Shown: positions 3,712 to 44,179 of the stretch, in pieces
Layout of the letters: each line of letters opens with the position of its first letter
Position numbering within the stretch: the first letter of the stretch is position 1
From: Alphaproteobacteria bacterium
GTDB lineage: Bacteria > Pseudomonadota > Alphaproteobacteria > Micropepsales > Micropepsaceae
DNA length: 50,200 bases
Assembly (NCBI GenBank): GCA_013697055.1
Contig: JACCXK010000103.1
Span: forward strand, 1-50,200
Reading direction: 5' to 3'
Made by a program: the position numbers and the translations under genes
The notes under the pieces: model-generated
Seen by the model: only the letters and a program-made list of their open reading frames with translations
Databases searched by the model: none
What the model was told of the DNA's origin: nothing

Positions 3712-5400
3712 ATGGCTTATGATTTCGACGCTATCGTTATCGGGTCCGGCATCAGCGGCGGCTGGGCGGCGAAGGAACTGACGGAAAAAGGCATGAAGGT
3801 CCTGATGCTGGACCGCGGCCGCATGGTCGAGCATCGCAAGGATTACATCACCGAAGGCAAGGGGCCGTGGGCTTTGCCGTTTCGCGGCAACCTGCCGCCC
3901 GAGCAGGTCGAGCGCGATTACCAGATGGCCAAGTGGGGCGGCGCCAACCTGACCCAGCAGACCCATTACTACAACAATGACCGGCTGAACCCGATCGACT
4001 ATGAGAATTCCAAGCCGTTCCGCTGGGTGCGGCCCAACCAGGTGGGCGGCAAGTCGCTGATCTGGGGCCGGGTGGCGCTGCGCTGGAGCAAGATCGACTT
4101 CGAAGCCAACAAGCGCGACGGCCACGGCAGCCCCTGGCCGATCGAGTATGACGAGGTCGCGCCCTGGTATTCCTATGTCGAAAAGTATGCCGGCATTGCA
4201 GGCTCGAAAGAAGGCTTGCCGCAATTGCCGGATGGCGAATACCAGCCGCCGCATCCGATGAACGCGGCGGAAATCTGGGTCAAGGACCGGTTGGAAAAGG
4301 CCATCCCCGGCCGCAAGCTGATCTCCACCCGCACCGCCAACATGACCGAGGACAAGCCGGAGCAGGGCCGCGCCCGCTGCCAGAGCCGTTCGATGTGCGC
4401 GCGGGGCTGTTCGTTCGGCGCTTACTTCTCCACCCAGGCGGTGACGTTGCCGGCGGCGCGCAAGACGGGAAACCTGACCTTGCTGTCCGACCAGGTGGTC
4501 ACAAACCTGGAATATGATCCCAAGACCAGGCGCGTTACCGGCGTGCGGGTGGTGGACGCCAATACCCTGCAGGCCAAGGTTCACACGTCGCGCATCGTGT
4601 TCGTCTGCGCCTCGGCCATGGCTTCGACGCAGATTTTGCTGAACTCGCGCCTGCCGGGCAGTGAACGCAGCTTTGCCGATTCCAGCGGCCTCTTGGGCCA
4701 TTACATCATGGACCATGCTTTCCGCACCGGCTTCTGGGGCACGGTGCCGGATCCGGCGCTGGAACCGTTCATCACCTATGGCCGCCGGCCCAATGGCGTT
4801 TACATTCCCCGCTTCCGCAACCTGAATGGCCAGGATACCGATGCCGATTTCGTGCGCGGCTATGGCATGCAGGGCGCCGCCGGGCGCAGTGTGGCGCAGC
4901 CGCGCGGCTTCGGCGCGGCGATGAAGGAGGGCATGCGCGGTTATGGTCCCTGGACCATCCGCTTCACCGCCTTCGGCGAGTGTCTGCCCTACAAGGACAA
5001 CACGCTGTCTTTGAACCCGGCCAAGCTGGACCGTTTCGGCGTGCCGCTGGCGGTGTTCAATGTCACCTTCCGTGACAATGAACAGAAGATGCTGCGCGAT
5101 GCGGCGTTGCAGGGCGAAGCCATGATGAAGGCCTCGGGGCTGGTGGATGTCGGCTCCTCCAACGAGGAGCATGTGCCCGGCGACGCCATTCACGAGATGG
5201 GTGGAGCCGTCATGGGCGCTGATCCGCGCGCGTCAGTGGTCAATCGCTGGAGCCAGTTGCACGACGCCGCCAATGTCTTCGTCACCGACGGATCGCAGAT
5301 GGCATCGACCTCTTGCGTCAATCCGTCGATGACCTTCATGGCGCTGACGGCGCGTGCCGCCGATCATGCGGTGAAGCTGGTAAAGGCCGGCACGATCTAA
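3712..5400 (+). CDS. GMC-family FAD oxidoreductase, sugar dehydrogenase type (562 aa)
   Basis: A flavoprotein dehydrogenase that probably oxidises a sugar, glycoside or polyol in the periplasm. The N-terminal dinucleotide motif is 'IVIGSGISGGWAAKEL' (GSGISGG at residues 11-17). The C-terminal catalytic signature is 'HEMGGAVMG' with His494 and 'CVNPSMTFMALTARAADHA' with Asn537, the His/Asn pair usual in bacterial glucoside or gluconate dehydrogenases. Internal 'CQSRSMCARGCSFGAYFST' is a Cys-rich loop also common in these enzymes. It has no signal peptide of its own. Export is inferred from the Tat-bearing subunit-3 gene 10 bases upstream. The closest functional comparison is glucoside 3-dehydrogenase. 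The exact substrate and oxidised carbon are not determined by the sequence. Confidence 0.93.
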   Translation: MAYDFDAIVIGSGISGGWAAKELTEKGMKVLMLDRGRMVEHRKDYITEGKGPWALPFRGNLPPEQVERDYQMAKWGGANLTQQTHYYNNDRLNPIDYENSKPFRWVRPNQVGGKSLIWGRVALRWSKIDFEANKRDGHGSPWPIEYDEVAPWYSYVEKYAGIAGSKEGLPQLPDGEYQPPHPMNAAEIWVKDRLEKAIPGRKLISTRTANMTEDKPEQGRARCQSRSMCARGCSFGAYFSTQAVTLPAARKTGNLTLLSDQVVTNLEYDPKTRRVTGVRVVDANTLQAKVHTSRIVFVCASAMASTQILLNSRLPGSERSFADSSGLLGHYIMDHAFRTGFWGTVPDPALEPFITYGRRPNGVYIPRFRNLNGQDTDADFVRGYGMQGAAGRSVAQPRGFGAAMKEGMRGYGPWTIRFTAFGECLPYKDNTLSLNPAKLDRFGVPLAVFNVTFRDNEQKMLRDAALQGEAMMKASGLVDVGSSNEEHVPGDAIHEMGGAVMGADPRASVVNRWSQLHDAANVFVTDGSQMASTSCVNPSMTFMALTARAADHAVKLVKAGTI

Positions 5401-5419
5401 AACAACCATGGGGGCAGGG

Positions 5420-6400
5420 ATGAAGATTTGGGCAGGATGTGTGTTGCTGGCTTTGCTAGCGGTACCAGTGATGGCGGCGGAGCCGCGCAAGCCGGGTGAA
5501 TATCCGCCGACGGCAGACTCGATCCCGCAACCCGGTGTGCCGAAAGGCAAGCTGATCGGGCCGCTGGAATTTCGCAGCAAGGTCATCGCGAACACGGTGC
5601 GCCGCTACTGGATCTATGTCCCCGCCAAGTATGATCCCAAATCGCCGCCCAACCTGCTGGTGTTTCAGGACGGCCAACGCGCGATCAATCCGCAAGGTCC
5701 GCTGAACATCCCGGTGGTACTGGATAATTTGATCGCCAAGGGCGACATTCCGCAGACTTTGGGCATCTTCATCACCCCGGGCAACACGGGTACTGAGCAT
5801 TATCCCGACGGGTTGGGACCGGCCGGCTGCACGGGATATGCCTGCACCGGCAATCCCAATCACCGGGCGCCGGAATATGACGCCCTCAGCGACGCCTATA
5901 CCCGCATGCTGATCGACGAGATCATGCCGGAAGTCGCCAAAACTTATAAATTCACCGATGACCCGAAGAAGCGCGCCATCGGCGGTACCTCAAGCGGCGC
6001 CATCTGCGCCTGGACAGTGGCGTGGCACCGCCCCGACGCCTTCGGCAATGTCATCAGCATGATCGGCAGCTACACCTCCATCGGCTATGTACCGGCGACC
6101 GCCGATCATCCCATGATCCCCGGCGGCGACACCTATCCCGGCCTCATCCGCAAAAGTCCGATCCGCCCCATCCGCATTTTCCTGCAGGACGGCACCGCGG
6201 ACCTCAACAACGAGCATGGCAACTGGCATCTGGCCAATGAGCAGATGGTGTCGTCGCTGCTCTGGGCCAATTCAAACGCCGATGAAAAGAAGATTCCCGG
6301 CGCGCGCTATGACGTGCGCTTTGAATGGGGGGACGGCGCCCATTCCGACGTCCATGGCGGGTGGTTGTTGCCGGGGATTTTGCGGTGGATGTTTGGGTGA
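5420..6400 (+). CDS. Secreted alpha/beta-hydrolase esterase, Fes/feruloyl-esterase-like (326 aa)
   Basis: The protein belongs to the putative esterase (enterochelin esterase/feruloyl esterase-like) alpha/beta-hydrolases. A Sec signal follows the start ('MKIWAGCVLLALLAVPVMAAEP'-type leader, cleaved after AMAA-like VMAA). An ATG twelve bases upstream at 5408 is also in frame. I prefer 5420 because it begins right at the Lys-hydrophobic leader. The nucleophile elbow is 'GGTSSGAICAW' (Ser near residue 191), with acid candidate in 'FLQDGTADLNN' and His in 'GDGAHSDVHGGW'. It sits 19 bases after the GMC gene and is likely co-transcribed. It may remove ester decorations from the same carbohydrate substrate. 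Two hairpins follow its stop codon. Confidence 0.86.
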   Translation: MKIWAGCVLLALLAVPVMAAEPRKPGEYPPTADSIPQPGVPKGKLIGPLEFRSKVIANTVRRYWIYVPAKYDPKSPPNLLVFQDGQRAINPQGPLNIPVVLDNLIAKGDIPQTLGIFITPGNTGTEHYPDGLGPAGCTGYACTGNPNHRAPEYDALSDAYTRMLIDEIMPEVAKTYKFTDDPKKRAIGGTSSGAICAWTVAWHRPDAFGNVISMIGSYTSIGYVPATADHPMIPGGDTYPGLIRKSPIRPIRIFLQDGTADLNNEHGNWHLANEQMVSSLLWANSNADEKKIPGARYDVRFEWGDGAHSDVHGGWLLPGILRWMFG

Positions 6401-6406
6401 GGAACG

Positions 6407-6447
6407 ACCGGCAAAGCCGGTCAAATCGGTCCAGTGGACCGATTTGA
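6407..6447. terminator. Two adjacent perfect hairpins between convergent genes
   Basis: Stem 1 is ACCGGC-AAA-GCCGGT (6407-6421). Stem 2 is a 12-bp perfect stem TCAAATCGGTCC-AGT-GGACCGATTTGA (6421-6447). They lie between the plus-strand esterase stop (6400) and the minus-strand amidohydrolase stop (6507), where transcripts from both sides must end. There is no long T run. A REP-like extragenic palindrome is the alternative reading. Confidence 0.6.
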
Positions 6448-6506
6448 GTGACGAACGCCGCGAGCTTGGGCGAGCGGCGGGTGGCTGCCGTTGAGGCGCG
6501 CTAAGC

Positions 6507-7448
6507 TCAGGCCTTCAGCCCCAACATCCGATGCGCGTTGGTCCAGACCAGCTTCCTGAACACCGGCTTTGACGTCGAGGCGGTGAGAAGCTTCAGGGTT
6601 TCCTGCGCCACGCATTTGCCGCGCATGCGCGGGGCAACGCGGTCGGAATTCTGTGCCGCGCCGCCGCCTTTGCCGTCCTCGCAATTGCAGTCGCTGCCGA
6701 AATGCAGCTTGTCCTGGTGGCGGTTCAGGAAATCCCTGGTGAAATCCGCATCGCGCGACAGGGCATTGTTGGCGGAGTTGGCGCTCATGTCGGCAAACAG
6801 GTTCGGATAGTCCGACAACAGCTTGTCGCTGACCCCGCCCGGCACGATCGGGCCGGTGGGATAGGCTTCCTGCTCATGATAGTCGGCGCTGATATTGGCC
6901 CAGAAGGCGTCGGCATGGGCGATGAACTTGGTGCGCGGATAGGCCTTGAGCATGCCTGCGAATTTCTTGATGCCGGTATTGTAGCCGCCGGGCGCCGCGG
7001 GCTGGCCGATCTCCTGGAAATGGATCAACACCGGCACGTTCAGTTCCGCCGCCAGGTCATAGACGCGGCGCATCTCCGGGCCGTCGGCCGCCACCGGATA
7101 TTTCAGTTCGCCAAAACCTTTTGCGCCGGCTTTCACCGCCTGAGTGAGAATCTGATCCGCGCCCGGCTTGGTGATGTCGGTCGCAGCGAACCAGCAAGGA
7201 AACATCGCGGAAGGCTTGGCCTGCCCAGGCCCCAAAGGCGCCGCCGGGTCGTAGCGGGTGAGAAGATTGGCAGCGGTGATGCCGGCGCCCTGCTGGTGGG
7301 CGATATTGAGTTCCGGCGTGGAACGCACATGGAAATGCATGTCGATCACCGGCGAGGACCAGGCCGGCGCCGTTTGTGCGCGGGCAGGGGCCACGGCAAA
7401 CGCGCCTAATCCTGTCAAAACGGTGCGTCTTTTTAAGCGGTTCGACAT
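6507..7448 (-). CDS. Tat-exported amidohydrolase, Amidohydro_2-type TIM barrel (313 aa)
   Basis: A metal-dependent TIM-barrel hydrolase or decarboxylase of the amidohydrolase_2 type. The start at 7448 is set by a strong ribosome site (GGAGGAACC before ATG) and gives a twin-arginine leader 'LKRRTVLTGLGAFAVAPARAQ'. Metal ligands appear as 'VIDMHFH' (His38, His40), 'VLIHFQE', 'KFIAHADAFW' and the acidic 'HFGSDCNCEDGKGGG'. The family includes 2-pyrone-4,6-dicarboxylate lactonase and amino-carboxymuconate decarboxylase relatives. Those are mostly cytosolic, so export is notable. The Cys-rich 'CNCEDGKGGG' insertion next to the catalytic Asp is unusual. It is divergent from the haem protein at 7657, with a shared upstream region of about 200 bases. 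Confidence 0.85.
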   Translation of the reverse strand: MSNRLKRRTVLTGLGAFAVAPARAQTAPAWSSPVIDMHFHVRSTPELNIAHQQGAGITAANLLTRYDPAAPLGPGQAKPSAMFPCWFAATDITKPGADQILTQAVKAGAKGFGELKYPVAADGPEMRRVYDLAAELNVPVLIHFQEIGQPAAPGGYNTGIKKFAGMLKAYPRTKFIAHADAFWANISADYHEQEAYPTGPIVPGGVSDKLLSDYPNLFADMSANSANNALSRDADFTRDFLNRHQDKLHFGSDCNCEDGKGGGAAQNSDRVAPRMRGKCVAQETLKLLTASTSKPVFRKLVWTNAHRMLGLKA

Positions 7449-7506
7449 GGTTCCTCCGGCAGGATTGGTTAGCGACCAAGCTAACCCATTGCGCCGGCTT
7501 GTGGAG

Positions 7507-7527
7507 GAATGCTGCATCGCAGCATTC
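7507..7527. promoter_or_regulatory. Perfect 9-bp inverted repeat in a divergent promoter region
   Basis: GAATGCTGC (7507-7515), ATC spacer, GCAGCATTC (7519-7527). It lies 59 bases upstream of the minus-strand amidohydrolase start and 130 bases upstream of the plus-strand haem-protein start, where an operator controlling both would be placed. A small hairpin in a leader transcript is the other possibility. Confidence 0.4.
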
Positions 7528-7656
7528 GTTCGCACTCGCGGTAAAGTTCCGTTCCAAACTGGTGTTCACTTTACTTGGAAGATCGGGGATAAGAAGTTTG
7601 GTAGAGGGACTCGCCAAAGGCGCAAAAGCGCCATGGCGACAGGGAGTTGCGCGTTC

Positions 7657-10104
7657 ATGCCGTTTGTCGGGCGTTTTGCCGTTTGCGTGATGGTGTTGGC
7701 CGGTGGTGCTGCGTTGTACAGCGGCGCCTTCGGCGAGACTGTCGCGTCCAATGCGCCCACGACAGCTTCGGGCGCCGCAACACCATCTTCTGTTACCGCT
7801 CCCACTGCCACGCCGGCAGACCACAAGAAGATGCTGATGCAGTACTGCACGGCCTGTCACAACGACAAGCTCAAGACCGCGGGAATGTCGGTGGTGCCGC
7901 TGGACGCCAACAATCTGCAAGCCAACCAGGCGACCTGGGAGAAGATCCTGCGCCGCGTCAGCCTGGGCGAGATGCCGCTGCGTGGCGCGCCGCGTCCGCC
8001 GAAGGAAAAGCTCCAGGAATTCACCAACTGGCTGGGCGCCACCCTGGATACCCAGGCCGCCGCCAGTCCCAATCCCGGCCACGCCACCGTGCGCCGCATG
8101 AACCGCACCGAATATGCCAATGCGGTGCGCGATCTGTTGGCGCTGGATGTGGACTTCACCAAGGACATGCCGGCCGACGATACCGGCTATGGCTTCGACA
8201 ATATCGCCGATGTGCTGACCGTCTCGCCCACCCTGATGGACCGCTACATCACCGTCGCCGGCAAGATCAGCCGCATGGCCACGGGGCAGGCGTCGCGCCG
8301 CACCATCACCACCGACTACAAGGTGCCCAAGGACCTGTTCAACAACGGCTTCGGGGTCGCCGCCTACAACGAGCGCGCCAGTGACGATCTTCCGTTGGAT
8401 TCGCGCGGCGGCGGCGCCTTCAAGTTCTATGCGCCCTATGACGCGACCTACAAGATTCAGGTTTTCCTCAATGCCAACACCTCCGAGGAAGGCGAAATCG
8501 GCATTGCCAACCGCTATGAGGTGACGGTGCCGCTGAAAGCGGGCCTGCGCACCCTCGGCGCCTCCTTCCCCAGGAGCCTGGCGCTGGACGAGCATGTCAC
8601 GCAAAAGACCATCCTGGGCGCACGCGAGCCTGCCGCCACGCCGCAACCCATCCCGATGGATGTGTCGGTGGATGGCGCGCGGGTGCAGCGCCTGACGGTG
8701 CCGTCGGTCGCAACCGGTCCCAATGTCTCGCAATCCTTCTACCTGCGCGACGTGATGCAGATTTCCGTGGTCGGTCCGTTCGACATCAAGGGCCCGGGCA
8801 ATACCGCCAGCCGCCGCAAGATTTTCATCTGTCGTCCGTCCGCGTCGTTGAGCGAGGAAGCTTGCGCCAACACCATCATCACCAATCTGGCGCGTCACGC
8901 CTATCGCCGTCCGGTCGCCCAAGCCGATGTCGCGCCGCTGATGAAGATCTATGCCGAAGGCCGCAAAGGCGCGGACTTCGATCACGGGATCGAGGCGGGC
9001 CTGGAAGCGGTGCTGGTGTCGCCCAGCTTCCTGTTCATGCGCGAAAGCGATCCGGTCAAGAGCGCGGCCGGCAATGTTCACCGCATCAGCGACCTGGAAC
9101 TGGCCACGCGCCTGTCCTTCTTCCTGTGGAGCAGCGTGCCTGACGATGCGCTGCTGAATGCGGCCCAGACGGGGCAGCTGCACAAGCCGGCGGTGCTGAA
9201 GGCGCAGGTCGCGCGCATGCTGGCCGATCCGCGCTCCAAGGCGTTGACCCAGAATTTCGCGGGCCAATGGCTCTATCTGCGCCGGCTGGAATATCAAAAG
9301 CCCGATCGCCGCGCCTTCCCGGATTTCGACGTGCGCCTGCGCAATGCGATGCAGACCGAAACCGAGATGTTCTTCGATGGCGTGGTGCGCGACAATCGCA
9401 GCGCGCTGGATTTCCTGGATGCCAACTACACCTATGTGAACCAGCGGCTGGCGGAGCATTACGGCATCCCCAATGTCTATGGCACCACCTTCCGCAAGGT
9501 TGAGCTCGATCCGGCGCTGCATCGCGGCGGCTTGCTGGGGCAGGGTTCGGTCCTGACCGTGACCTCCTACAACAACCGCACCTCGGTGGTGCTGCGCGGC
9601 AAGTGGATACTGGAAAATATTCTGGCCGCAGCGCCGCCGCCGCCGCCGCCCAATGTGCCGACCCTGAACGAAGCCAAGAACGGCAAGGCCATGACCATCC
9701 GTCAGCAGATGGAAGTGCACCGCGCCAACCCGGTCTGCGCCTCCTGCCACACCAAGATGGACCCGTTGGGCTTCAGCCTTGAGAATTACGACGCAGTGGG
9801 CAAATGGCGCACCGGCTATGCCGGTTCGGTGGTCGATGCTTCGGCGGTGCTGCCGGACGGCACCAAGTTCGAAGGTCCCAAGGGATTGCAGGACATCCTG
9901 TTGTCGCGCAAGGACCAGTTTGTCGAAGCCCTGACCGAGCGGCTGATGACCTACGCGTTGGGTCGTGGCCTTGAATCCTACGACATGCCGGCGGTGCGCA
10001 GCGTTCGCTACCAGGCGGCAAAGGACGATTACCGCATGCAGACCATTATCCTCGGCATTGTTCAAAGTGTGCCTTTCCAGATGAGAAGGACTCCCGAAAT
10101 ATGA
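7657..10104 (+). CDS. Di-haem DUF1587/1592/1588/1585-type protein (815 aa)
   Basis: This is the multi-domain exported protein family common in Planctomycetes, Verrucomicrobia and Acidobacteria. Its function is unknown. I use ATG 7657, which follows an AGGGAG site at about 10 bases; ATG 7633 is a longer in-frame alternative. A signal or anchor segment is at residues about 5-25. A class I cytochrome-like motif 'YCTACH' sits at Cys64/Cys67/His68. 'MNRTEYANAVRDLLALDVD' (DUF1587) follows. A central carbohydrate-binding-like region precedes the DUF1595/1592 segment with 'LSFFLWSSVPDDALL'. A second CxxCH, 'VCASCH', at Cys694/Cys697/His698, lies in 'KMDPLGFSLENYD' (DUF1588). The C-terminal DUF1585 ends with 'YRMQTIILGIVQSVPFQMR'. 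Two covalent c-haems are expected. It overlaps the DUF1552 gene by 4 bases (ATGA). Confidence 0.9.
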   Translation: MPFVGRFAVCVMVLAGGAALYSGAFGETVASNAPTTASGAATPSSVTAPTATPADHKKMLMQYCTACHNDKLKTAGMSVVPLDANNLQANQATWEKILRRVSLGEMPLRGAPRPPKEKLQEFTNWLGATLDTQAAASPNPGHATVRRMNRTEYANAVRDLLALDVDFTKDMPADDTGYGFDNIADVLTVSPTLMDRYITVAGKISRMATGQASRRTITTDYKVPKDLFNNGFGVAAYNERASDDLPLDSRGGGAFKFYAPYDATYKIQVFLNANTSEEGEIGIANRYEVTVPLKAGLRTLGASFPRSLALDEHVTQKTILGAREPAATPQPIPMDVSVDGARVQRLTVPSVATGPNVSQSFYLRDVMQISVVGPFDIKGPGNTASRRKIFICRPSASLSEEACANTIITNLARHAYRRPVAQADVAPLMKIYAEGRKGADFDHGIEAGLEAVLVSPSFLFMRESDPVKSAAGNVHRISDLELATRLSFFLWSSVPDDALLNAAQTGQLHKPAVLKAQVARMLADPRSKALTQNFAGQWLYLRRLEYQKPDRRAFPDFDVRLRNAMQTETEMFFDGVVRDNRSALDFLDANYTYVNQRLAEHYGIPNVYGTTFRKVELDPALHRGGLLGQGSVLTVTSYNNRTSVVLRGKWILENILAAAPPPPPPNVPTLNEAKNGKAMTIRQQMEVHRANPVCASCHTKMDPLGFSLENYDAVGKWRTGYAGSVVDASAVLPDGTKFEGPKGLQDILLSRKDQFVEALTERLMTYALGRGLESYDMPAVRSVRYQAAKDDYRMQTIILGIVQSVPFQMRRTPEI

Positions 10105-11444
10105 TGATCACCAAGAAAGCGATGGGCCGCCGCGCCATGTTGCGTGGGCTGGGCACCGTGATGGCGCTGCCGTTGCTGGAAGCCATGAGCTCCAGCGCCA
10201 GCGCGCTGGAAGCCTCGACCGCGGCGCGCAAGCGCCTGCAGGTCATCTACACGCCCAACGGCATGATGATGGAGAACTGGACGCCGAAGACGGCGGGCGA
10301 GGGCTATGAGCTGTCGCCGATCCTCAAGCCCCTGGAGCCCTATCGGGGCAAGTTCACGGTGTTCTCCAATTTGGCGCATGTCCAGGCCGAGGCGCTGGGC
10401 GACGGCGCGGGCGACCATGGCCGTTGCTGCGGCGGTTACCTGACCGCCACCCATGTCAAGAAGACCGAAGGCGCGGACATCACCGCCGGCGTGTCGATGG
10501 ACCAGGTTGTTGCCAAGCAGTTCGGCGAGAAGACCCAGATCCCGTCCATCGAAGTGGGCCTGGAACCTCCCTCGCTGGTCGGCTCTTGCGACAGCGGTTA
10601 CTCTTGCGCCTATACCAACACCCTGTCCTGGTCGAATGCCTCGACGCCGCTGCCGGTCACCATCAATCCGCGCGAAGTGTTCGAGCGGCTGTTCGGTGAC
10701 GGCGACAGCCTGGATGCCAAGAGCCGGCTGGCGCAGCTGCGCCGCCAGGCCTCGATCCTGGATTTCGTCGCCCAGGACGCCAAGCGCCTGTCGACCAAGA
10801 TGGGCGCCAGCGACAAGCACAAGCTGGACGAGTACCTGACCTCGGTGCGCGATATCGAAAAGCGCATTCAGAAGGTGGAGCAGGGCGGCACCGAAGCCAC
10901 CGCGCTCCCCGCCTATGCCCGTCCCTCCGGCGTGCCGGACAAGTTCGAAGATTATTCGCACATGATGATCGACCTGCAGGTTCTGGCCATGCAGGCGGAC
11001 ATCACCCGCGTCTCCAGCTTCATGGTCGGCCGCGAAGTGTCGGGCCGTTCCTATCCGGAGATCGGCGTGCCGGACGCGCACCATCCGCTCAGCCACCATG
11101 GCCATGATCCGGAAAAGATCGCCAAGCTGACCAAGATCAACACCCTGCACATGGAACAGGTGGCCTATTACCTGAAGCGCATGAGCGAGACCAGGGAAGG
11201 CGAAGGCAACCTGCTCGACACCACCCTGGTGATGGCGGGCGCCAGCCTGGCCGATCCCAACAACCACGACCATCGCGACCTGCCGGTGATCGTGGCGGGT
11301 GGGTTGATGAAGGGCAACCGCCATGTCATCGCCGCCAAGGATACGCCCATGGCCAACCTGATGCTGTCCATGATGGACACGCTGGGCGTGGAATGTCACA
11401 GCATCGGCGACTCCTCCGGCCGTCTTTCCACTTTCTCGGTGTAA
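10101..11444 (+). CDS. DUF1552 protein, Tat-exported (447 aa)
   Basis: DUF1552 proteins nearly always follow DUF1592-type genes and are related in fold to DUF1501/sulfatase-like proteins. Their activity is not established. The leader 'KKAMGRRAMLRGLGTVMALPLLEAMSSSASA' region is a twin-arginine signal (GRRAMLRG). Characteristic segments are 'VIYTPNGMMMENWTP', 'DHGRCCGGYLTATH', 'SGRSYPEIGVPDAHHPLSHH' and 'LVMAGASLADPNNHDHRDLPVIVAGG'. The many His, Asp and Cys in these blocks could bind metal. Its start overlaps the stop of the di-haem protein, so it is translationally coupled. Folded, Tat-exported and partnered with a haem protein, it is best read as one component of an extracytoplasmic oxidising complex. 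Confidence 0.92.
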   Translation: MMITKKAMGRRAMLRGLGTVMALPLLEAMSSSASALEASTAARKRLQVIYTPNGMMMENWTPKTAGEGYELSPILKPLEPYRGKFTVFSNLAHVQAEALGDGAGDHGRCCGGYLTATHVKKTEGADITAGVSMDQVVAKQFGEKTQIPSIEVGLEPPSLVGSCDSGYSCAYTNTLSWSNASTPLPVTINPREVFERLFGDGDSLDAKSRLAQLRRQASILDFVAQDAKRLSTKMGASDKHKLDEYLTSVRDIEKRIQKVEQGGTEATALPAYARPSGVPDKFEDYSHMMIDLQVLAMQADITRVSSFMVGREVSGRSYPEIGVPDAHHPLSHHGHDPEKIAKLTKINTLHMEQVAYYLKRMSETREGEGNLLDTTLVMAGASLADPNNHDHRDLPVIVAGGLMKGNRHVIAAKDTPMANLMLSMMDTLGVECHSIGDSSGRLSTFSV

Positions 11445-11455
11445 TCGGCGAGGCG

Positions 11456-12826
11456 ATGAAAAAGGCGTTATTGGGATTGTGCCTGCTTGGGGCGCTGCCG
11501 GCTTACGCCAGCAGCGGCGCCGACAGCCGGCTGGTGCAGGCGGTGCGCAGCGACGACCATGCCGCCATCAAGCGCCTGCTGGCGGCGCATCCGGATGTGA
11601 ATGCACCGCTGCCCGACAAGTCCACGGTCCTGTCCTGGGCGGTGGATCGCCAGGATGTGGAGTCCGTCCATCTGCTGCTGGCGGCGGGCGCCAAGCCCAA
11701 CATCGCTGATGTCTCGGGCGCCTCGCCCATGACCCTGGCTTGCGATCTGGGCAATCCGGAAATCGTCACCAGCCTGCTCAAGTCGGGCGGCAACGCCAAT
11801 GGGAGCCGCGCCGACGGCATCGCGGCGCTGGCGCTGTGCGCGGGCAGCTCCACCCCCGCCACCCTGGACATGCTGCTCGCCAAGGGCGCCAAGGTGGAGG
11901 CCACCAACCCGGAAGGCCAGACCGCCCTGATGCGGGCCGCCTTCAAGGGTCGCACCGACAATATCAAGTTCCTGCTGGCACATGGCGCCAATGCCAATGC
12001 GGTGTCGGTCAAGGGCTTCACGCCGCTGTTCTTCGCGCTTCGCTCCAACGAGCCGTCGGCGCCGCTGGCATTGCTGGATGCCGGCGCCAATTCCAAGACC
12101 ACCCTGCCGGACGGGACTTCCGTCGTTTCGGCTGCGGTCGCCAATGGCAATGTGCCCTTTGCCGTGACTGCGGTGTCGCGCGGCACTGAGCTGGAGCAGC
12201 ATGACTCCCAGGGCCGCCAGTTGATCCATGTCGCGGCCCTCAGCGGCAATGCCGAGCTGGTCAAGATGGTGCTGTCCAAGGGCGTCGATGCCAACACCAT
12301 GAGCGTACCGCCATCCGCGCCGCCGGCGCCGGTGCAGGTGGCTTCCGCTGGTGGCGGGCAGAAGCTCGCCCGCGCCGATGGCACTCGTCCGCCGCCGCCG
12401 GCCGCCCAGCCGCGCACGCCGCTGATCTTCGCCGCCGAAGCTGGCAGCGCTCCCGCCATGAAGGCCTTGGTGGAATCCGGCGCCAAGGCCAGCATTGCGG
12501 CGCCCGACGGGACCACGGTCGCGCTCGCCGCGGCCGGCAGTGGCAACCTGGATGCGGTGAAGTATGCGCTGGAGCTGGACCCGAAGCTGGATTACATCGG
12601 CCCCAACCATCGCAGCATCATGCACTTCGCCATCGCCAACAAGAATCCCGACCTGGCAATTCCGGTGCTGCAATATCTCGCCGACAAGGGCGCCAAGCTG
12701 GACGAGAAGAACGACAAGGGCGACACACCGGGCGATTTCATCAACCGCGGCGGCCAGCAGGATATTCGCCTTTTCTATATTCAGCTGCTCAAAGACCACA
12801 ACATCGTGAGCACCCACGACCACTAG
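11456..12826 (+). CDS. Exported ankyrin-repeat protein (456 aa)
   Basis: A Sec signal ('MKKALLGLCLLGALPAYAS') precedes about eleven ankyrin repeats spanning the rest of the chain ('STVLSWAVDRQDVESVHLLLAAGAK', 'QTALMRAAFKGRTDNIKFLLAHGAN'). A Pro/Ala-rich linker ('PPSAPPAPVQ', 'PPPPAAQPRTP') interrupts the array near residue 300. Ankyrin arrays bind proteins and have no enzymatic role. The start at 11456 is 11 bases after the DUF1552 stop. Exported ankyrin proteins recur beside DUF1592/DUF1552 pairs, so it may scaffold that complex in the periplasm, but this is inference from context. Confidence 0.9.
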   Translation: MKKALLGLCLLGALPAYASSGADSRLVQAVRSDDHAAIKRLLAAHPDVNAPLPDKSTVLSWAVDRQDVESVHLLLAAGAKPNIADVSGASPMTLACDLGNPEIVTSLLKSGGNANGSRADGIAALALCAGSSTPATLDMLLAKGAKVEATNPEGQTALMRAAFKGRTDNIKFLLAHGANANAVSVKGFTPLFFALRSNEPSAPLALLDAGANSKTTLPDGTSVVSAAVANGNVPFAVTAVSRGTELEQHDSQGRQLIHVAALSGNAELVKMVLSKGVDANTMSVPPSAPPAPVQVASAGGGQKLARADGTRPPPPAAQPRTPLIFAAEAGSAPAMKALVESGAKASIAAPDGTTVALAAAGSGNLDAVKYALELDPKLDYIGPNHRSIMHFAIANKNPDLAIPVLQYLADKGAKLDEKNDKGDTPGDFINRGGQQDIRLFYIQLLKDHNIVSTHDH

Positions 12827-12849
12827 CAGCGTCCGAACGGGGGATCGTC

Positions 12850-13707
12850 ATGCGCATGGCCGCCGCCTTTGCAGGTCTGATGGCCATGTGCCTGTCGGCC
12901 TCTGCCCAATCCGTGACACCGCCCGGCCTGCCGCCGCTGCCGCATCTGACGTCCCCGCGCCTGTATGTGCTGGACTGCGGCACCATCATCTCCCATGAGC
13001 CCGAGCGCTTCGGCCTCAGCCGCCAGGATGTCTCCGATCCAGATTTTTCCGATCCCTGTTTCCTGGTGATGCATCCCAAGGGCATCCTGCTGTTCGATAC
13101 CGGGTTGACGGACGCGCAGGTGGGGCGGCCCATCTATGAAAACAGAATCGGCTATGAAGGCCAGCTCAAGACCACCACCCTGAAAGGCGAGCTGGCCAAT
13201 ATCGGCGTCACCTCCGCCATGATCACCTATCTCGCCATTTCCCATTCCCATTGGGACCATGTCGGCAACGGCAACGCCTATGCCGGTTCGACCTGGCTGG
13301 CGCGCAAGGCCGAATATGACGTGATGTTCGGATCCGCCGCCAATGCCGTGGCGAAAAGCAACTATGCCGCCCTGGCGCATGCGAAGATCCAGTATATCGA
13401 GGGCGATCACGACGTGTTTGGCGACGGCAGCGTGATGCTGCTCTCCACCCCCGGCCATACGCCGGGCCACCAGTCTCTTTATGTGAAACTTGCCAACACC
13501 GGCGGCGTGGTGGTGTCCGGGGACCTGTATCATTACCCGGCGGAACGAACCCAGGGGAAAATGCCGGCCCGCGAAGTTGCCAGCGGCACGCCGGAGTCGC
13601 GGCTGAAAGTCGACGACTTTCTCGCCCGCACCCATTCCCGGCTTTGGATCGGCCACAGCATCGACTGGTTCCGCGATGCGGTGAAGGCGCCCGGCTGGTA
13701 CGACTAG
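12850..13707 (+). CDS. Exported metallo-beta-lactamase-fold hydrolase, lactonase-like (285 aa)
   Basis: A binuclear-zinc hydrolase of the metallo-beta-lactamase superfamily, closest in pattern to N-acyl-homoserine lactonase-like proteins. A Sec leader (residues 1-19, ending 'LSASAQS') is followed by the zinc motif 'SHSHWDHVGN' (His132, His134, Asp136, His137). Further ligands are 'STPGHTPGHQS', 'VVSGDLYHY' and the C-terminal 'LWIGHSIDWF'. The 'YVLDCGTI' start of the mature part and the Asp in 'LLFDTGL' fit the family. It starts 23 bases after the ankyrin gene and is probably in the same operon. It could open a lactone produced by sugar oxidation or quench signals. The sequence does not discriminate between these. 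Confidence 0.88.
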   Translation: MRMAAAFAGLMAMCLSASAQSVTPPGLPPLPHLTSPRLYVLDCGTIISHEPERFGLSRQDVSDPDFSDPCFLVMHPKGILLFDTGLTDAQVGRPIYENRIGYEGQLKTTTLKGELANIGVTSAMITYLAISHSHWDHVGNGNAYAGSTWLARKAEYDVMFGSAANAVAKSNYAALAHAKIQYIEGDHDVFGDGSVMLLSTPGHTPGHQSLYVKLANTGGVVVSGDLYHYPAERTQGKMPAREVASGTPESRLKVDDFLARTHSRLWIGHSIDWFRDAVKAPGWYD

Positions 13708-16556: not shown

Positions 16557-16609
16557 TAGGATTGTTGCGTGCGCCGGGGCGCAGCACGCCATCCGACAGG
16601 GAATTTGGA

Positions 16610-17119
16610 ATGCTCAAACTGGCTTTACCGCTTTTGCTCGCCCTCTCGGCCGCGCCGGCTTTTGCCGCGGATTACCAGGCCAGCCTTGGCCCCATGCCGC
16701 TGGACGATGAGACCAAGGCGGTGATCGCGGGCCGGGGCGAGGCCACCGCCAGCTATGACGGCAAAATGTTGACAGTGAAAGGCAGCTTCCGCGGCCTGCC
16801 GTCCAGCGCCACCGAGGCGCATATCTTCCTCAGCCTCGCCACCGCCGTTCCGGGCAAACCGGTGCTGGATTTGGAGATCACCAAATCCACCAGCGGCACG
16901 CTGTCGGCCAGCACCAAACTGACCAGTGCCCAGGCCACCGCGCTGCGCACCGGCAAGCTCTATATCCAGATCAACAGCGAGAAGGCGCCCACCAACTATG
17001 AATGGGGTCCCAAGGGCACCTTGTGGGGCTGGATTTTTCCGGCACACGAAACCGTTGGCCAGAACGTGCCGCAGCAGGATCACTGGTTCATTCCCCAACT
17101 CGATACGCCGTCGCGTTAA
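16610..17119 (+). CDS. Exported CHRD-domain protein (169 aa)
   Basis: A Sec leader ('MLKLALPLLLALSAAPAFAADY') precedes a single CHRD (chordin-like) beta domain, recognised by 'GEATASYDGKMLTVKGSFRGLPS', 'EAHIFLSLATAVPGKPVLDL' and 'LRTGKLYIQINSEKAP'. CHRD domains have no known catalytic role. In bacteria they are secreted and often accompany redox proteins. The start 16610 is chosen for the signal peptide; an upstream TTG/ATG-extended frame lacks one. It is the first gene after the promoter and lies 15 bases before the quinoprotein gene, so it is part of that operon. Confidence 0.85.
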   Translation: MLKLALPLLLALSAAPAFAADYQASLGPMPLDDETKAVIAGRGEATASYDGKMLTVKGSFRGLPSSATEAHIFLSLATAVPGKPVLDLEITKSTSGTLSASTKLTSAQATALRTGKLYIQINSEKAPTNYEWGPKGTLWGWIFPAHETVGQNVPQQDHWFIPQLDTPSR

Positions 17120-17134
17120 GCAGAAAGACTTGCA

Positions 17135-19246
17135 ATGAAGAAGATCGGCTATCTGTTGGGTGCGGCCATATTGGGCTTTGGCGCGGTCGCGGCGTTCGGC
17201 CAGCAGGGGCGCATCGGTCCTTTCACGGCGGCGCAGATGAATGACGGTCGCACCGCCTATGGCGCCAACTGCGCCATGTGCCACCAGGCCAACATGAGCG
17301 GCGGCAATGATGCGCTGCCGCTGGCCGGCAAGGCCTTCATGGGCGCCTGGAGCAAGCGCAGCGCCGCCGATCTCTACAACAAGATTCACACATCGATGCC
17401 TCTAGGGCGCGGCGGCAGCCTGAGCGAAAAGCAATATACCGACATCACCGCCTATATCCTGCACGGCAATGGCGCCAATCCCGGCAGCACCGCGTTCACG
17501 CCCACCACCGCCGTGAATATCGCCAGCTTCGCCACCGGCCTTGTTCCGCCCGATGTGGCGCGCGGCGCCGCGGGCCGCGCCCCTGTCGCCACCGTGGCGC
17601 CCATCAAGCTGGGCCAGATCGTGGAAGGGAACGTCCAGAATTACGCGGCCGTGACCGATGCGATGCTGCGAACCCCGCCGGAAAGCGACTGGCTGATGTT
17701 CCGCCGCAATTATGCGGGCTGGAGCGATACGCCGCTCAAACAGATCGACACAGGCAATGTGTCGAACCTGCAGCTCAAATGGACCTGGATGCTGCCGGAA
17801 GGCGGCACCACCGAGATCACGCCCATCGTTCACAATGGCGTGATGTACATTTCGGGTAGCAGCAACACGGTCCAGGCGCTGAACGCCAGAACCGGCGAAA
17901 TGATCTGGGAAAACCGCCTGGGTCCGGCCGTGACGCATCATGGCCCCGGCGACTCCACGGTGGAGACGCGCAGCCTGGCACTCTATGGCAACAACGTCTA
18001 TGTCGCCACGCCCCAGGCGGTGATCTATGCGCTGGATGCGCGCACCGGCAAAATGGTATGGAAAACCAACCAAGTCGACAATCCGGCGGTGAAGGGCAAC
18101 AACACCGGCGGTGTGATGGCCATCAAGGGCAAGATTCTCACCGGCCTGAACCATTGCGGCAGTGCGGGCGGACCCGATCATTGCCAGGTTACCGCGTTGG
18201 ACGCCGAGACCGGCAAGGTGGTGTGGCGCTTCCTCACCACGGCGCTGAAAGGCCAGCCCGGCGGCGAGAGCTGGGGCGGCATGGCGGACAATGACCGCCA
18301 GGGCGCCGATACCTGGATCGCCGGCACGTACGATCCGGAATTGAATACGACCTATTGGGGCACGGCCCAGGCCAAGCCGTGGCGGCGCGACCTGCGCGGC
18401 TCCGGCAGTGGCGCGACGGACTATGCCAATTCCACGCTGGCGCTGGACCCCGACACCGGCAAGCTGAAATGGTGGTTCAACCATGCGCCGGGCGAGAGCC
18501 TGGACTTGGACGAAGTGTTCGAGCGTGTGCTGATCGATCACGGCCCGCAGAAAACGCTGATGACCATTGGCAAGGCCGGCATCCTGTGGAAGCTGGACCG
18601 CGTCACTGGCAAGTTCATCGCCGCCAAGGAGACGGTGTTCCAGAACGTCTTTACCGGCATCGACAAGAATGGCGTGCCGTCCTACCGCAAGGACATTGTC
18701 GACCAGAAGGTCGACCAGTGGCTGTCATCCTGCCCGGGCCCGGAAGGCGGGCATGACTGGCAGGCCACCAGCTACAACCAGGCCAATGACACCATCATCC
18801 TGCCTCTGTCGCAGAGCTGCGTGATGATGCTGGGCAACGGTTCGCAGGCATACTTCGAAATGCCGGGCAGCGACGGCAATATGGGCCGCCTGTCGGCCTA
18901 TCGCACCGCCGACATGAAGCCGCTCTGGTCGTTCCAGCAGCGCGCGCCGTTCCTCACCGGCGTGCTGTCCACCGCCGGCGGCGTGGCGTTCGTGGGCGAC
19001 TTCGACCGCGTGTTCCGCGCCGTGGACGTCAAGACCGGCAAGACCCTGTGGACCTCGCGCCTGGGCACCACGGTGAAGGGCTATCCCGTCAGCTTCAGTG
19101 TAGACGGCAAGCAGTATATCGCCGTGACCACGGGCCTTGGCGGCGGCAGCCCGGAAGCGAAACCCTCCACCATGCTGACCGAAGTGCATCGGCCGCTCTA
19201 TGGCCAGGCGCTCTATGTCTTCGCCCTGCCGGACGCGCCGAAATAG
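17135..19246 (+). CDS. Cytochrome c / PQQ-type beta-propeller fusion dehydrogenase (703 aa)
   Basis: A secreted quinoprotein with its own haem domain at the N-terminus. After a signal peptide (residues 1-22) comes '[15 protein letters not shown]' (Cys46, Cys49, His50) with a likely axial Met in 'TSMPLGRGG'. From about residue 188 an eight-bladed PQQ propeller follows ('[17 protein letters not shown]', '[11 protein letters not shown]', '[12 protein letters not shown]', '[15 protein letters not shown]'). Ordinary alcohol quinoproteins have a vicinal Cys pair and a 'D.WDYD' catalytic block. Here the first is absent and the second reads '[15 protein letters not shown]', so PQQ chemistry may be altered. 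It resembles quinoproteins amplified in Acidobacteria. It stops immediately before the GMC gene, suggesting electrons pass between them. Confidence 0.88.
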
Positions 19247-20947
19247 ATGGCTGCGAAATCACATCGGGAGTTTGAGCCGGACGTCGTGATCGTGGGATCC
19301 GGCGCCGGCGGCGGCATGGCCGCCTATGTCCTGACCCGCGCCGGCATCAAGACCCTGGTGCTGGAAGCGGGGCGCGATTACGACCCCATGTCCGACAGCG
19401 CCATGCTGAAATGGAACCATGAAGCGCCGCTGCGCGCCGCGCCGACCCCGGAAAAGGATTTCGGCTATTACGACGCCACCGTGAATGGCGGCTGGAGCGT
19501 GCCGGGCGAGCCCTATACCAGCGCGCCCGGTTCGGTCTTCCGCTGGTGGCGTTCGCGCATGCTGGGCGGGCGCACCAACCATTGGGGCCGTCATTCGCCG
19601 CGCTTCGGGCCCTATGACTTCAAGCCCTTCAGCCGCGACGGGCTGGGCATGGACTGGCCCATCTCCTATGCCGACATGGCGCCCTGGTATGACCGCACCG
19701 AAAAGCTGGTCGGGGTGATCGGCACCAATGTCGGGCTGGAAAACCATCCGGACTCCTCACCAGGCGTGCTGTTGCCGTCGCCCAAGCCCCGCGCCACCGA
19801 GTTGATGATCCAGGCGGCTGCCAACGATTTGGGCATTCCGTGCGTGCCGTCGCGTTATGCCGTGCTGTCGCGCGCCATCGATCATCCCCATGCCCCGCGC
19901 GAAGCCTGTTTCAATGCCTCGCCGTGCGGCCGCGGCTGCGGCATCGGGGCGGCGTTCCAGACCACCACCTCCTTGCTGCCCATGGCGATGGGAACGGGCA
20001 AGCTGCGCATCACCACCAACGCCACCGTTGCCCGCGTCTTGACCGACGCGCGCGGCAAGGCGAGGGGCGTGGAGTATTTCGACAAGGACGGCGTCTCGCA
20101 TTTCATCAAGGCGCGGGTGGTGGTGCTGGCGGCCAGCGCCTGCGACACCGCCAAGATCCTGCTGAATTCGAAAGACGGCGGCCTCGCCAATTCCAGCGGT
20201 GAAGTCGGCAAGAACCTGCTTGATACCACCGGCACAAACATCGCCGGCCATATTCCCGCGCTGGAAGGCCGTCCCCGCTACAATGAAGACGGCATGGATG
20301 TGGCCCATCTCTACATCCCGTTCTGGCTGTATAAAGAGCAGGCAGCGGGCAAGCTCGATTTCCCGCGCGGCTATCATTACGAGATCGGCGGCCGCTTCAA
20401 CATGCCGGGGGCAGGGCTGCCGCTGGGCGGCATGGAAGACGGTTACGGCCTGTCGCTCAAGGAGGATGCGCGCCGCTATTACGGCGCCCAGCTCTCCTAC
20501 ACCGTGCGCGGCGAGATGATCCCCAACAAGGATTCCTATTGCGAGTTGGACCCGGTGGTGAAGGACAAGGTCGGCATGCCCGTGCTGCGCTTCCACTGGA
20601 AATGGTCGCAGCATGAAATCCGCCAGATCGCCCATGGCATCAAGACCGCCAGGGAAATGATCCAACGCCTGGGCGGCACCGTCACCACGCCAGACTTGCC
20701 GCCGGAAAAGGCCATCGCCGATGGCGGCTTCATCATCCATGAACTGGGCACCACCCGCATGGGTGACAAGGCGTCCAATTCGGTTACCGACAGTTTCGGC
20801 AAGAGCTGGGACATCGACAATCTGGTGATCGCCGACGGCAGCGTCTTCACCTCGAACGCGCACAAGAATCCGACCTTGACCATTCTGGCGCTGTCGATGC
20901 GCAACTCCGCTCATCTGGCGCAGCGCATGAAGAAGGGCGAGTTATGA
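19247..20947 (+). CDS. GMC-family FAD oxidoreductase, second copy (566 aa)
   Basis: An FAD dehydrogenase for sugars or glycosides. The Rossmann motif is 'VVIVGSGAGGGMAAYVL'. The catalytic C-terminus is 'HELGTTRMG' (His498) and 'AHKNPTLTILALSMR' (His539, Asn541). A Cys-rich 'CFNASPCGRGCGIGAAF' loop matches that of the first GMC protein in the window. No signal peptide is present. The ATG follows directly on the quinoprotein stop, and the stop overlaps the subunit-3 gene by 4 bases, so export with that Tat-type partner is likely. The two GMC proteins of the window are clearly different paralogues. Confidence 0.93.
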   Translation: MAAKSHREFEPDVVIVGSGAGGGMAAYVLTRAGIKTLVLEAGRDYDPMSDSAMLKWNHEAPLRAAPTPEKDFGYYDATVNGGWSVPGEPYTSAPGSVFRWWRSRMLGGRTNHWGRHSPRFGPYDFKPFSRDGLGMDWPISYADMAPWYDRTEKLVGVIGTNVGLENHPDSSPGVLLPSPKPRATELMIQAAANDLGIPCVPSRYAVLSRAIDHPHAPREACFNASPCGRGCGIGAAFQTTTSLLPMAMGTGKLRITTNATVARVLTDARGKARGVEYFDKDGVSHFIKARVVVLAASACDTAKILLNSKDGGLANSSGEVGKNLLDTTGTNIAGHIPALEGRPRYNEDGMDVAHLYIPFWLYKEQAAGKLDFPRGYHYEIGGRFNMPGAGLPLGGMEDGYGLSLKEDARRYYGAQLSYTVRGEMIPNKDSYCELDPVVKDKVGMPVLRFHWKWSQHEIRQIAHGIKTAREMIQRLGGTVTTPDLPPEKAIADGGFIIHELGTTRMGDKASNSVTDSFGKSWDIDNLVIADGSVFTSNAHKNPTLTILALSMRNSAHLAQRMKKGEL

Positions 20948-21669
20948 GCGAGGTTTCCCGCCGCGTCACCCTGGCCTGGTTTGCCGCCGCTTCCGCCGGT
21001 GCGCTGGCGATGGAAGGTTGCGCCACAGCCGCACCACACAATTCCATGGCGCCGCCGCCCGCACCGGCGCCCGCTACGCCTGTTTCGCTATGGAAAGACC
21101 TGACGCCGCCGCCCATCACCGCGCCCGGCTATGGCTATGATCCCAATCTCAACAAGCCTGTCATTCCCTGGCCGCTGACGCTGGAGCCGCGGCAGCGCGA
21201 GGTGCTGCGCATCGCCGCCGACCTGATGCTGCCGGCCGATGCCCATTCGCCGTCCGGCTCGGCGTTGCACCTCGATGCCTTCCTGGATGAATGGGTCAGC
21301 GCGCCCTATCCCCTGCAACAAGCCGATCGCCGCCTGATCCTGTCGGGCCTCGCCTGGCTGGATGCCGAGAGCAACCAACGCTTCGGCAAGACCTTTGCCC
21401 AGGCGGATGATACCCAGCGGCGCGCGATTTTCGATCTTGTCGCCTATCGCGCCAAGGTGACGCCGGACTATCGCCGCCCGGCGCAATTCTTTGTCCGCCT
21501 GCGCGGCTTGATGCTGGCGGGCTTCTATTCCCAGCCCGAAGGCATCGCCGACATCGGCTACAAGGGCAACAATCCCACCCCGGGCATGTTTCCTGGGCCC
21601 ACGCCGGAAGCGCTGGCGCATCTCAACGCCGCCCTCACCAAGCTGGGTCTCAAGCCCGTCAGCGGCTGA
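20944..21669 (+). CDS. Gluconate 2-dehydrogenase subunit 3-like protein, second copy (241 aa)
   Basis: Partner subunit for the adjoining GMC flavoprotein. The leader 'EVSRRVTLAWFAAASAGALAM' is a twin-arginine signal. 'MEGCATAA' supplies a Cys that could be a lipidation site, although its lipobox is atypical. A Pro/Ala-rich linker follows, then the conserved 'PRQREVLRIAADLMLPADAHSPSG' and 'DIGYKGNNPTPGMFPGPTPEAL'. It is longer than the first copy (186 aa) because of the linker. The ATGA overlap with the GMC gene shows translational coupling. Its 3' end overlaps the convergent DUF1080 gene by 11 bases. Confidence 0.88.
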   Translation: MSEVSRRVTLAWFAAASAGALAMEGCATAAPHNSMAPPPAPAPATPVSLWKDLTPPPITAPGYGYDPNLNKPVIPWPLTLEPRQREVLRIAADLMLPADAHSPSGSALHLDAFLDEWVSAPYPLQQADRRLILSGLAWLDAESNQRFGKTFAQADDTQRRAIFDLVAYRAKVTPDYRRPAQFFVRLRGLMLAGFYSQPEGIADIGYKGNNPTPGMFPGPTPEALAHLNAALTKLGLKPVSG

Positions 21670-42653: not shown

Positions 42654-42655
42654 TC

Positions 42656-44164: not shown

Positions 44165-44179
44165 CGGGTTAATGGGGCA

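Follow-up and report, generated by a model that had tools for sequence, protein, structure and literature searches.

A recurrent ankyrin-repeat partner of the DUF1592/DUF1552 gene pair, candidate subunit of an exported redox complex, in an alphaproteobacterial operon and other bacteria

Whether four closely spaced genes form one functional system, and what such a system could do, is the question raised by a locus in a 50,200-nucleotide stretch of DNA (hereafter, the window), which comprises positions 1-50,200 of the forward strand of contig JACCXK010000103.1 in assembly GCA_013697055.1, from a member of the Micropepsaceae (Alphaproteobacteria). In order, the genes encode a PSD/PSCyt3 protein with CxxCH motifs (hereafter, the PSD protein), a DUF1552 protein, an ankyrin-repeat protein and a hydrolase of the metallo-beta-lactamase (MBL) fold (Table 1). 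The ankyrin gene is not a chance neighbour of the PSD/DUF1552 pair; the three genes form a triad that recurs far beyond the host genome. An earlier note on this DNA had already described the four open frames, which were found where it placed them, and its family labels were borne out by Pfam matches over the cut-offs for DUF1592, DUF1552, ankyrin and Lactamase_B; the large CxxCH-bearing protein that it reported is likewise real, and its five-domain make-up is added here. The PSD and DUF1552 genes overlap by four bases, and gaps of only 11 and 23 bases separate the DUF1552 gene from the ankyrin gene and the latter from the MBL gene.

Table 1. Genes of the operon, its neighbours and a second unit in the window
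Feature	Positions	Strand	Basis
PSD3-PSD5-PSD4(DUF1592)-PSCyt3(DUF1588)-PSD2 exported protein, 815 aa, two CxxCH	7657..10104	+	Pfam, motifs, model
DUF1552 (HXXSHH) protein, twin-arginine signal, alkaline-phosphatase/sulfatase-superfamily fold (predicted)	10101..11444	+	Pfam, model
Ankyrin-repeat protein, exported by signal-peptide-like start, probable dedicated partner of the pair	11456..12826	+	Pfam, homologue starts
AHL-lactonase-like metallo-beta-lactamase-fold hydrolase, exported, apparent lineage-specific accessory	12850..13707	+	Pfam, alignment
Amidohydrolase_2 protein, divergent	6507..7535	-	family scan
Carbohydrate-esterase-like protein	5408..6400	+	family scan
GMC oxidoreductase, fructose-dehydrogenase-large-subunit-like; also in L065, L075	3712..5400	+	family scan, alignment
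PSCyt1-DUF1549-DUF1553 protein	39669		family scan
DUF1501 protein	42656		family scan
PSCyt1 protein with leucine-rich-like repeats (by eye)	44180		family scan
NHL-repeat protein	45581		family scan

The neighbourhoods of DUF1552 genes were compared in 209 rows (identical sequences merged, envelopes of fewer than 200 residues left out) that represent 208 distinct genes, because L210, a truncated version of the L132 gene, is also counted; the fetched stretches cover part of the listed DUF1552 places in same-genus relatives, in genomes G456 to G459 and in the order of G457. A PSD partner is encoded on the same strand in 195 of the 209 rows, and an ankyrin gene lies within 800 bases of the pair in 88. 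The share varies with the source: 32/43 in G457, the genome behind L132 (24/34 where the flanks are full; one miss is L210, whose L132 copy has the ankyrin gene), 28/32 in G459, the genome behind L081 (one miss, L235, has an ankyrin gene beside a broken PSD frame), 5/5 in G456, the genome behind L145 (which is itself a sixth copy, among the named loci, and has an ankyrin gene too), 1/1 in G346, 0/2 in G458, 16/43 in alphaproteobacterial relatives and 6/83 among named loci. In the window's own genus, 14 stretches (L059-L072) contain close DUF1552 orthologues in the order PSD-DUF1552-ankyrin, 13 of which were aligned and are 64-95% identical to that of the window; the other DUF1552 genes of same-genus genomes have a PSD partner and, in the DNA examined (some contigs end nearby), no ankyrin gene except at L054. 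Among 80 named loci, ankyrin genes are present at the alphaproteobacterial L074-L077 and at L081, L129, L132 and L145, the records of which are labelled Acidimicrobiia, Akkermansiaceae, Vicinamibacterales and Gammaproteobacteria, respectively; the remainder are without, and the contig of L140 ends before the ankyrin position. The placement is flexible, with 55 ankyrin genes downstream and 15 upstream on the same strand, 18 upstream and one downstream on the opposite strand, and one DUF1552 gene having two. Altogether, 98 ankyrin open reading frames (ORFs) were found, of which 11 are unassigned: six, at L074, L076, L264, L270 and L246 (two), come from merged copies, and the others are in L235, L207 (two), L208 and L236; one of the L207 frames belongs to the L132 pair, and the other, like those of L208 and L236, lies at a stretch end.

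The association is equally apparent from the ankyrin side. Among the ankyrin loci listed down to E ~6e-12 (the best 150 of 213 and of 202 candidates in two of the genomes), 33/37 in G457, 30/35 in G459 and 6/6 in G456 (69/78 in total) lie within 5.5 kb of a DUF1552 gene, against expected shares of 7.3%, 8.7% and 2.1%. A fresh sample of 20 DUF1552 loci, taken from the top of the list rather than at random, from 13 further genomes of the order of G457, showed the PSD partner in 20/20 and an ankyrin gene in 12/20; all 12 adjoin the pair, and no ankyrin frame was found away from it in these loci. The earlier note had proposed to compare DUF1552 loci for exported ankyrin and MBL genes; the ankyrin association recurs far beyond the host genome, whereas the MBL association does not, as detailed below.

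The PSCyt3 gene pair itself is already in print: in Verrucomicrobia, PSCyt3 genes usually adjoin one unknown gene family, and a possible role of the PSCyt proteins in carbohydrate degradation has been raised (He et al. 2017, PMC5615132). The PSD domain set and the usual neighbour family are as in the window, whereas the main text of that paper does not contain the term 'DUF1552' and its passages on these genes do not describe an ankyrin partner; here, a third, dedicated exported protein is added, also in other phyla. Searches of the open-access literature returned no paper that joins DUF1552 with DUF1592, DUF1552 with ankyrin, or ankyrin with Vicinamibact- and cytochrome c, which is weak evidence of absence; these searches brought up no description of an ankyrin third part.

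In a tree of 208 DUF1552 proteins, rooted at its midpoint (L140, which ends with its contig, was left out, and L235, with its ankyrin gene next to a broken PSD frame, was set by hand as ankyrin-bearing), 88 of the 89 ankyrin-bearing cases fall into one group of 98 to which the window gene belongs, together with eight proteins without ankyrin and two undecided. Support is 0.58 for this group and 0.97 for a node of 97 within it; the alphaproteobacterial cases and G346 form a group of 18 inside it with a support of 0.999. The only ankyrin-bearing case outside (1/110) is L054, a further triad of the window's own genome (positions 5231-10696 of a stretch from contig C123) with the order PSD-ankyrin-DUF1552; it either arose separately or goes back to an ancient rearrangement. 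The G459 copies intermix on the tree with those of the Vicinamibacterales genome G457, so that the Acidimicrobiia label of the L081 record may be wrong.

The three genes also diverge together. Among the 83 triads kept for distance analysis (those with short PSD or ankyrin frames, or no PSD gene in reach, were left out), the 29 of G457 show correlation coefficients of 0.62 for ankyrin and DUF1552, 0.57 for ankyrin and PSD, and 0.73 for DUF1552 and PSD, none of which was equalled in 2000 permutations; the respective values for the 28 triads of G459 are 0.63, 0.64 and 0.75. Because the ankyrin distances track those of both partners, the triad is copied and diverges as one unit. This joint divergence supports a dedicated ankyrin partner and, by itself, is no proof of contact.

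What the proteins might do has to be approached from their domains, motifs and models. The PSD protein matches all five Pfam families over the cut-offs (PSD4/DUF1592 at 4.2e-49, PSCyt3/DUF1588, PSD2, PSD3 and PSD5), and an N-terminal cytochrome c domain scores under its cut-off (20.3 vs 27 bits). Its ORF opens at a GTG at 7258 (948 aa), a start that was rejected since the 133 extra residues match no listed family; reading from the ATG at 7657 retains all five domains and fits a signal peptide by eye. The CxxCH sites are CTACH and CASCH; in 40 homologues, H68 is invariant, as are C694, C697 and H698 of the PSCyt3 domain, and C64 and C67 are at least 90% conserved, so that the motifs are not due to chance. 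Together with the presence of CcmE in the window's genome, these motifs predict two putative haem c sites. CxxCH motifs were counted in the 176 of the 195 PSD-bearing rows with an untruncated PSD protein: 82/83 of those paired with ankyrin have exactly two, whereas those without ankyrin have two in 74/93, one in 18/93 and three in 1/93. Only one CxxCH is present in ten DUF1552 partners, 537-586 aa long (L044:7673-9346, L045, L046, L047, L048, L052, L053, L056, L057 and L058), which probably represent a one-haem form of the pair within the window's genus.

Structure adds little for this protein. Its solved relatives by sequence are limited to chance-level matches and one weak cytochrome c match; the model (predicted local distance difference test score, pLDDT, 83.5) has no significant match among the PDB entries listed, so that the chemistry cannot be read from the fold. 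A beta domain at residues ~217-375 gives weak galectin-like or lectin-like matches with Z of 6.3 at most, under the safe level. These matches bear on the possibility that enzymes acting on polysaccharides receive electrons from the module. Like the PSD protein, the secreted Cbp2D of Cellvibrio japonicus includes DUF1587 and two domains with CxxCH, and two lytic polysaccharide monooxygenases (LPMOs) accept electrons from its X183 domain on its own (PMC8981238); the carbohydrate-esterase-like gene upstream of the triad would fit such a role. Cbp2D differs in carrying carbohydrate-binding and YceI-like domains, and the relevant passages of PMC8981238 mention neither DUF1552 nor ankyrin. Furthermore, no LPMO family was detected in the scanned window proteins or in the 25 of 68 families listed for the 91 scanned neighbour ORFs, and we regard electron donation of this kind as quite unlikely.

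The DUF1552 protein is a clear member of its family (HXXSHH/DUF1552 at 1.2e-107, 360 bits against a cut-off of 30). Its N-terminus carries a twin-arginine signal, with both arginines invariant in 50 homologues. In the same alignment, H106, H328, H332, H333 and H389 are invariant and D385 and N387 nearly so; all of these except H106 could form a metal site. A sequence search found no solved relatives. The AlphaFold2 model (mean pLDDT 82), in contrast, retrieves steroid sulfatase and carrageenan sulfatases with Foldseek (E down to 3e-6), and in VIA-align its top 50 matches are mostly sulfatases and nucleotide pyrophosphatases (NPP), with Z of 15.8-17.2 over 242-280 residues. The predicted structure thus has the overall fold of the alkaline-phosphatase/sulfatase superfamily, in agreement with the sulfatase-fold-like partner proposed in the earlier note. 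Profile comparisons based on alignments of 50, 9 and 6 sequences link DUF1552 to DUF1501 (94.6%, E 7e-8, 82 columns), which in turn is linked to sulfatases (93.5%, E 2e-7); the direct DUF1552-sulfatase comparison is non-significant (0.16%), so that the superfamily assignment relies on the fold and the DUF1501 bridge. As a side observation, sulfatase-family and DUF1552 matches number 10 vs 43 in G457, 4 vs 35 in G459 and 78 vs 4 in the Akkermansiaceae genome G458.

The match of the model to this fold would allow the DUF1552 protein to be a plain alkaline-phosphatase-superfamily hydrolase that just has the cytochrome gene next to it. However, the family lacks the sulfatase nucleophile motif CxPSR, with a His-rich conserved set in its place, and no C/S-x-P-x-R motif occurs at the LTA/LTG site of the DUF1552 sequence. 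In the best stretch of the non-significant alignment, YLTA of DUF1552 lies over LLTG of sulfatases, and the invariant His106 probably occupies the position of the catalytic Cys, in a register taken from that alignment; the DN pair that follows a strand in sulfatases has no counterpart in the profile bridge. Given also the constancy of the CxxCH-bearing partner (195/209), an ordinary hydrolase is highly unlikely.

For the ankyrin protein (Pfam match at 1.1e-45), the frame opens at 11393, inside the DUF1552 gene and 63 bases before 11456; because all 15 aligned homologues share the Met at residue 22 and, of the 14 others, 12 have their own start at this residue, the start is best placed at 11456. 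By a loose rule, signal-peptide-like starts are present in 72/83 ankyrin proteins vs 96/300 control ORFs. The best score against the Dot/Icm ankyrin effector model of NCBIfam is 77 bits vs a cut-off of 600, and no viral-contig relatives were confirmed.

The ankyrin protein could instead be a chaperone that supplies haem to the dihaem protein or helps it to fold, and would then not belong to the finished enzyme. Cj1386, titled ankyrin-containing, binds haem via Tyr57 and supplies the catalase KatA (PMC11442138), and AnkB, titled periplasmic, is needed for full KatB activity in Pseudomonas aeruginosa, where the two genes are adjacent (PMC2830190). The partner in the window is a putative haem protein as well, by its CxxCH motifs, and the ankyrin gene lies beside it and has, by the loose rule, an exported product. 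The two known partners, however, are catalases, and Cj1386 is listed as cytoplasmic (PMC11442138); the triads, in turn, number dozens of paralogues in some of the genomes analyzed here. In the alignment columns of 83 ankyrin proteins that are at least 85% conserved, there is no Tyr and no Cys. The conserved residues His279 and His411 sit where an ordinary ankyrin repeat often has His. In addition, haem of the c type is normally attached by the cytochrome c maturation (Ccm) system, of which CcmE is present in the window's genome. A chaperone role of this kind therefore appears unlikely.

The reading that we favour, about as likely as not, is that the triad encodes an exported redox complex with the ankyrin protein as a dedicated assembly or scaffold subunit. 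The DUF1552 protein would fold around its metal in the cytoplasm, leave by the twin-arginine translocation (Tat) route and become the substrate-handling subunit; the dihaem protein would accept electrons either directly from this subunit or from a substrate bound between the two, and hand them to the respiratory chain; and the ankyrin protein, exported by the general secretory (Sec) route, would assemble or stabilize the pair. The substrate is perhaps a sugar-like or plant-derived compound. The two export routes fit this model, because Tat serves proteins folded with their cofactor and Sec those finished outside. AnkB-KatB and Cj1386-KatA are earlier examples of an ankyrin protein at the service of a haem protein.

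Several observations weigh against such a complex. Ankyrin genes are lacking in 109 of the 110 rows outside the group of 98 (some contigs being too short to tell) and in eight of the 98 inside it, and in 8/20 fresh loci, so that the pair can exist without ankyrin; in the Akkermansiaceae genome G458, an ankyrin gene accompanies only one of four copies (L129; L144, also among the named loci, is without). The distance correlations would also follow from mere co-duplication of the three genes, and the absence of a significant structural match for the PSD protein offers no help. A CcmE search in G457 gave no match, so that haem attachment there would need another system, or else the metagenome-assembled genome (MAG) is incomplete. 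Finally, we know of no redox enzyme in the alkaline-phosphatase superfamily. A bolder version would make the triads a new class of periplasmic oxidoreductases. In it, DUF1552, a repurposed member of the alkaline-phosphatase superfamily whose invariant His replaces the catalytic nucleophile and which has a His-rich metal site, would be the catalytic subunit; electrons would pass through the dihaem protein, and assembly would fall to an ankyrin protein matched to each paralogue. The dozens of parallel copies in a genome would then act on different substrates. This version is tentative and on the whole rather doubtful.

The MBL gene belongs to a different category. Its product matches Lactamase_B at 2.9e-13, has an export-like start by eye and carries HSHWDH; the later His, Asp and His are seen by eye in the alignment to N-acyl homoserine lactone (AHL) lactonase chains, and the best match to a solved N-acyl homoserine lactonase scores 76 bits. 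It thus shares HxHxDH and the later metal ligands with the AHL lactonases AiiA and AttM and falls far under their curated NCBIfam scores (83.3 vs 390 and 79.4 vs 375). The earlier note took this hydrolase for a member of the system that could process its lactone product, and in principle all four genes could serve a single route for processing a lactone, ending with the MBL lactonase, given the position of the gene directly behind the ankyrin gene and the dehydrogenase genes nearby. Yet, besides the window, the MBL gene is found at only four close orthologous loci (L061, L065, L075 and L077), that is, in 4 of 16 other alphaproteobacterial triad loci (copies counted once; two of them, L061 and L071, short). 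In G457, G459 and G456, a search around 80 DUF1552 genes found no such neighbour (phmmer with the window MBL, E 1e-3, within 3 kb); a weak sixth match near L040, on the other strand (E 2e-5), was not counted as an orthologue. The MBL protein as a core part was accordingly rejected, since it was seen beside close orthologues and beside no DUF1552 gene examined in the ankyrin-rich genomes, and the single pathway is very improbable, the least probable of the readings considered here.

A lactone substrate for the MBL protein would more simply come from dehydrogenases encoded near it. The GMC gene at 3712 has a product similar to fructose dehydrogenase (E 4e-40), and the MBL gene is followed by genes for GMC2 and gluconate-dehydrogenase subunit 3 at L075 and L077. 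Hence, the MBL protein could belong to a set for sugar oxidation and lactone opening gathered beside the triad in this lineage. The other flanking genes are also patchy: in the same 16 loci, the esterase is found in nine (L059, L060, L062-L066, L075 and L077) and the amidohydrolase, without solved relatives by sequence, in seven (L059, L060, L063-L065, L075 and L077). The MBL, esterase, amidohydrolase and GMC proteins would thus be accessory catabolic functions of the alphaproteobacterial lineage.

The window as a whole is rich in sugar and alcohol oxidation genes (3712-5400 and 17135-21669); the latter segment encodes a pyrroloquinoline quinone (PQQ)-type dehydrogenase with a cytochrome domain, then a GMC protein, then gluconate-2-dehydrogenase subunit 3, and is preceded by a CHRD-domain protein (16562-17119). 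L057, from the same genome, encodes two relatives of the CHRD protein and three of the PQQ protein. Relatives of the window PQQ protein (29620) occur in 15/74 stretches of G457, G459 and G456. Scans of 91 of the 295 neighbour ORFs in these genomes, chosen mechanically in a way that admits false ORFs, yielded PQQ or related beta-propellers (3), glucose/sorbosone dehydrogenase (2), CarboxypepD_reg (3) and outer-membrane barrels (2); a substrate guess from neighbour genes was dropped because the families are otherwise scattered among the 25 of 68 listed.

The same window contains a second unit (39669-46735; Table 1), which the earlier note had described as a parallel design, with putative different substrates for the two units. 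This unit is real, with DUF1549/DUF1553, DUF1501, leucine-rich-like PSCyt1 and NHL proteins all found in family scans, and the parallel is substantiated by the homology of DUF1501 and DUF1552 in the profile comparison given above. Both units combine a CxxCH protein with a partner; the PSCyt2(DUF1549/DUF1553)/DUF1501 unit differs in its domain set and in having PSCyt1 and NHL proteins where the PSD/DUF1552 pair has ankyrin.

The host is a draft genome of 3.77 Mb in 256 contigs with six DUF1552 genes; the nearest named relatives of the window's gene come from alphaproteobacterial MAGs (95, 87 and 86% identity). DUF1552 was detected in 11 of 61 genomes searched (the host, 36 of the same genus and 24 of the same class), all 11 from the same genus, and in 8/398 genomes drawn from the phylum, including the window's own; the family is thus rare and patchy in Pseudomonadota. 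In the order of G457, 21 of 40 sampled genomes, G457 included, encode it. G457, G459 and G456 have 43, 35 and six matches, respectively, and four genomes reach 43, 37, 36 and 35.

Pairs of DUF1592 and DUF1552 genes can therefore reach dozens per genome without a known function. The sulfatase-like fold apparently devoid of the nucleophile says which chemistry not to expect of the DUF1552 protein. The ankyrin third part marks one clade of these pairs and predicts a complex open to pull-down, and deletion of the single ankyrin gene makes the function of the pair testable.

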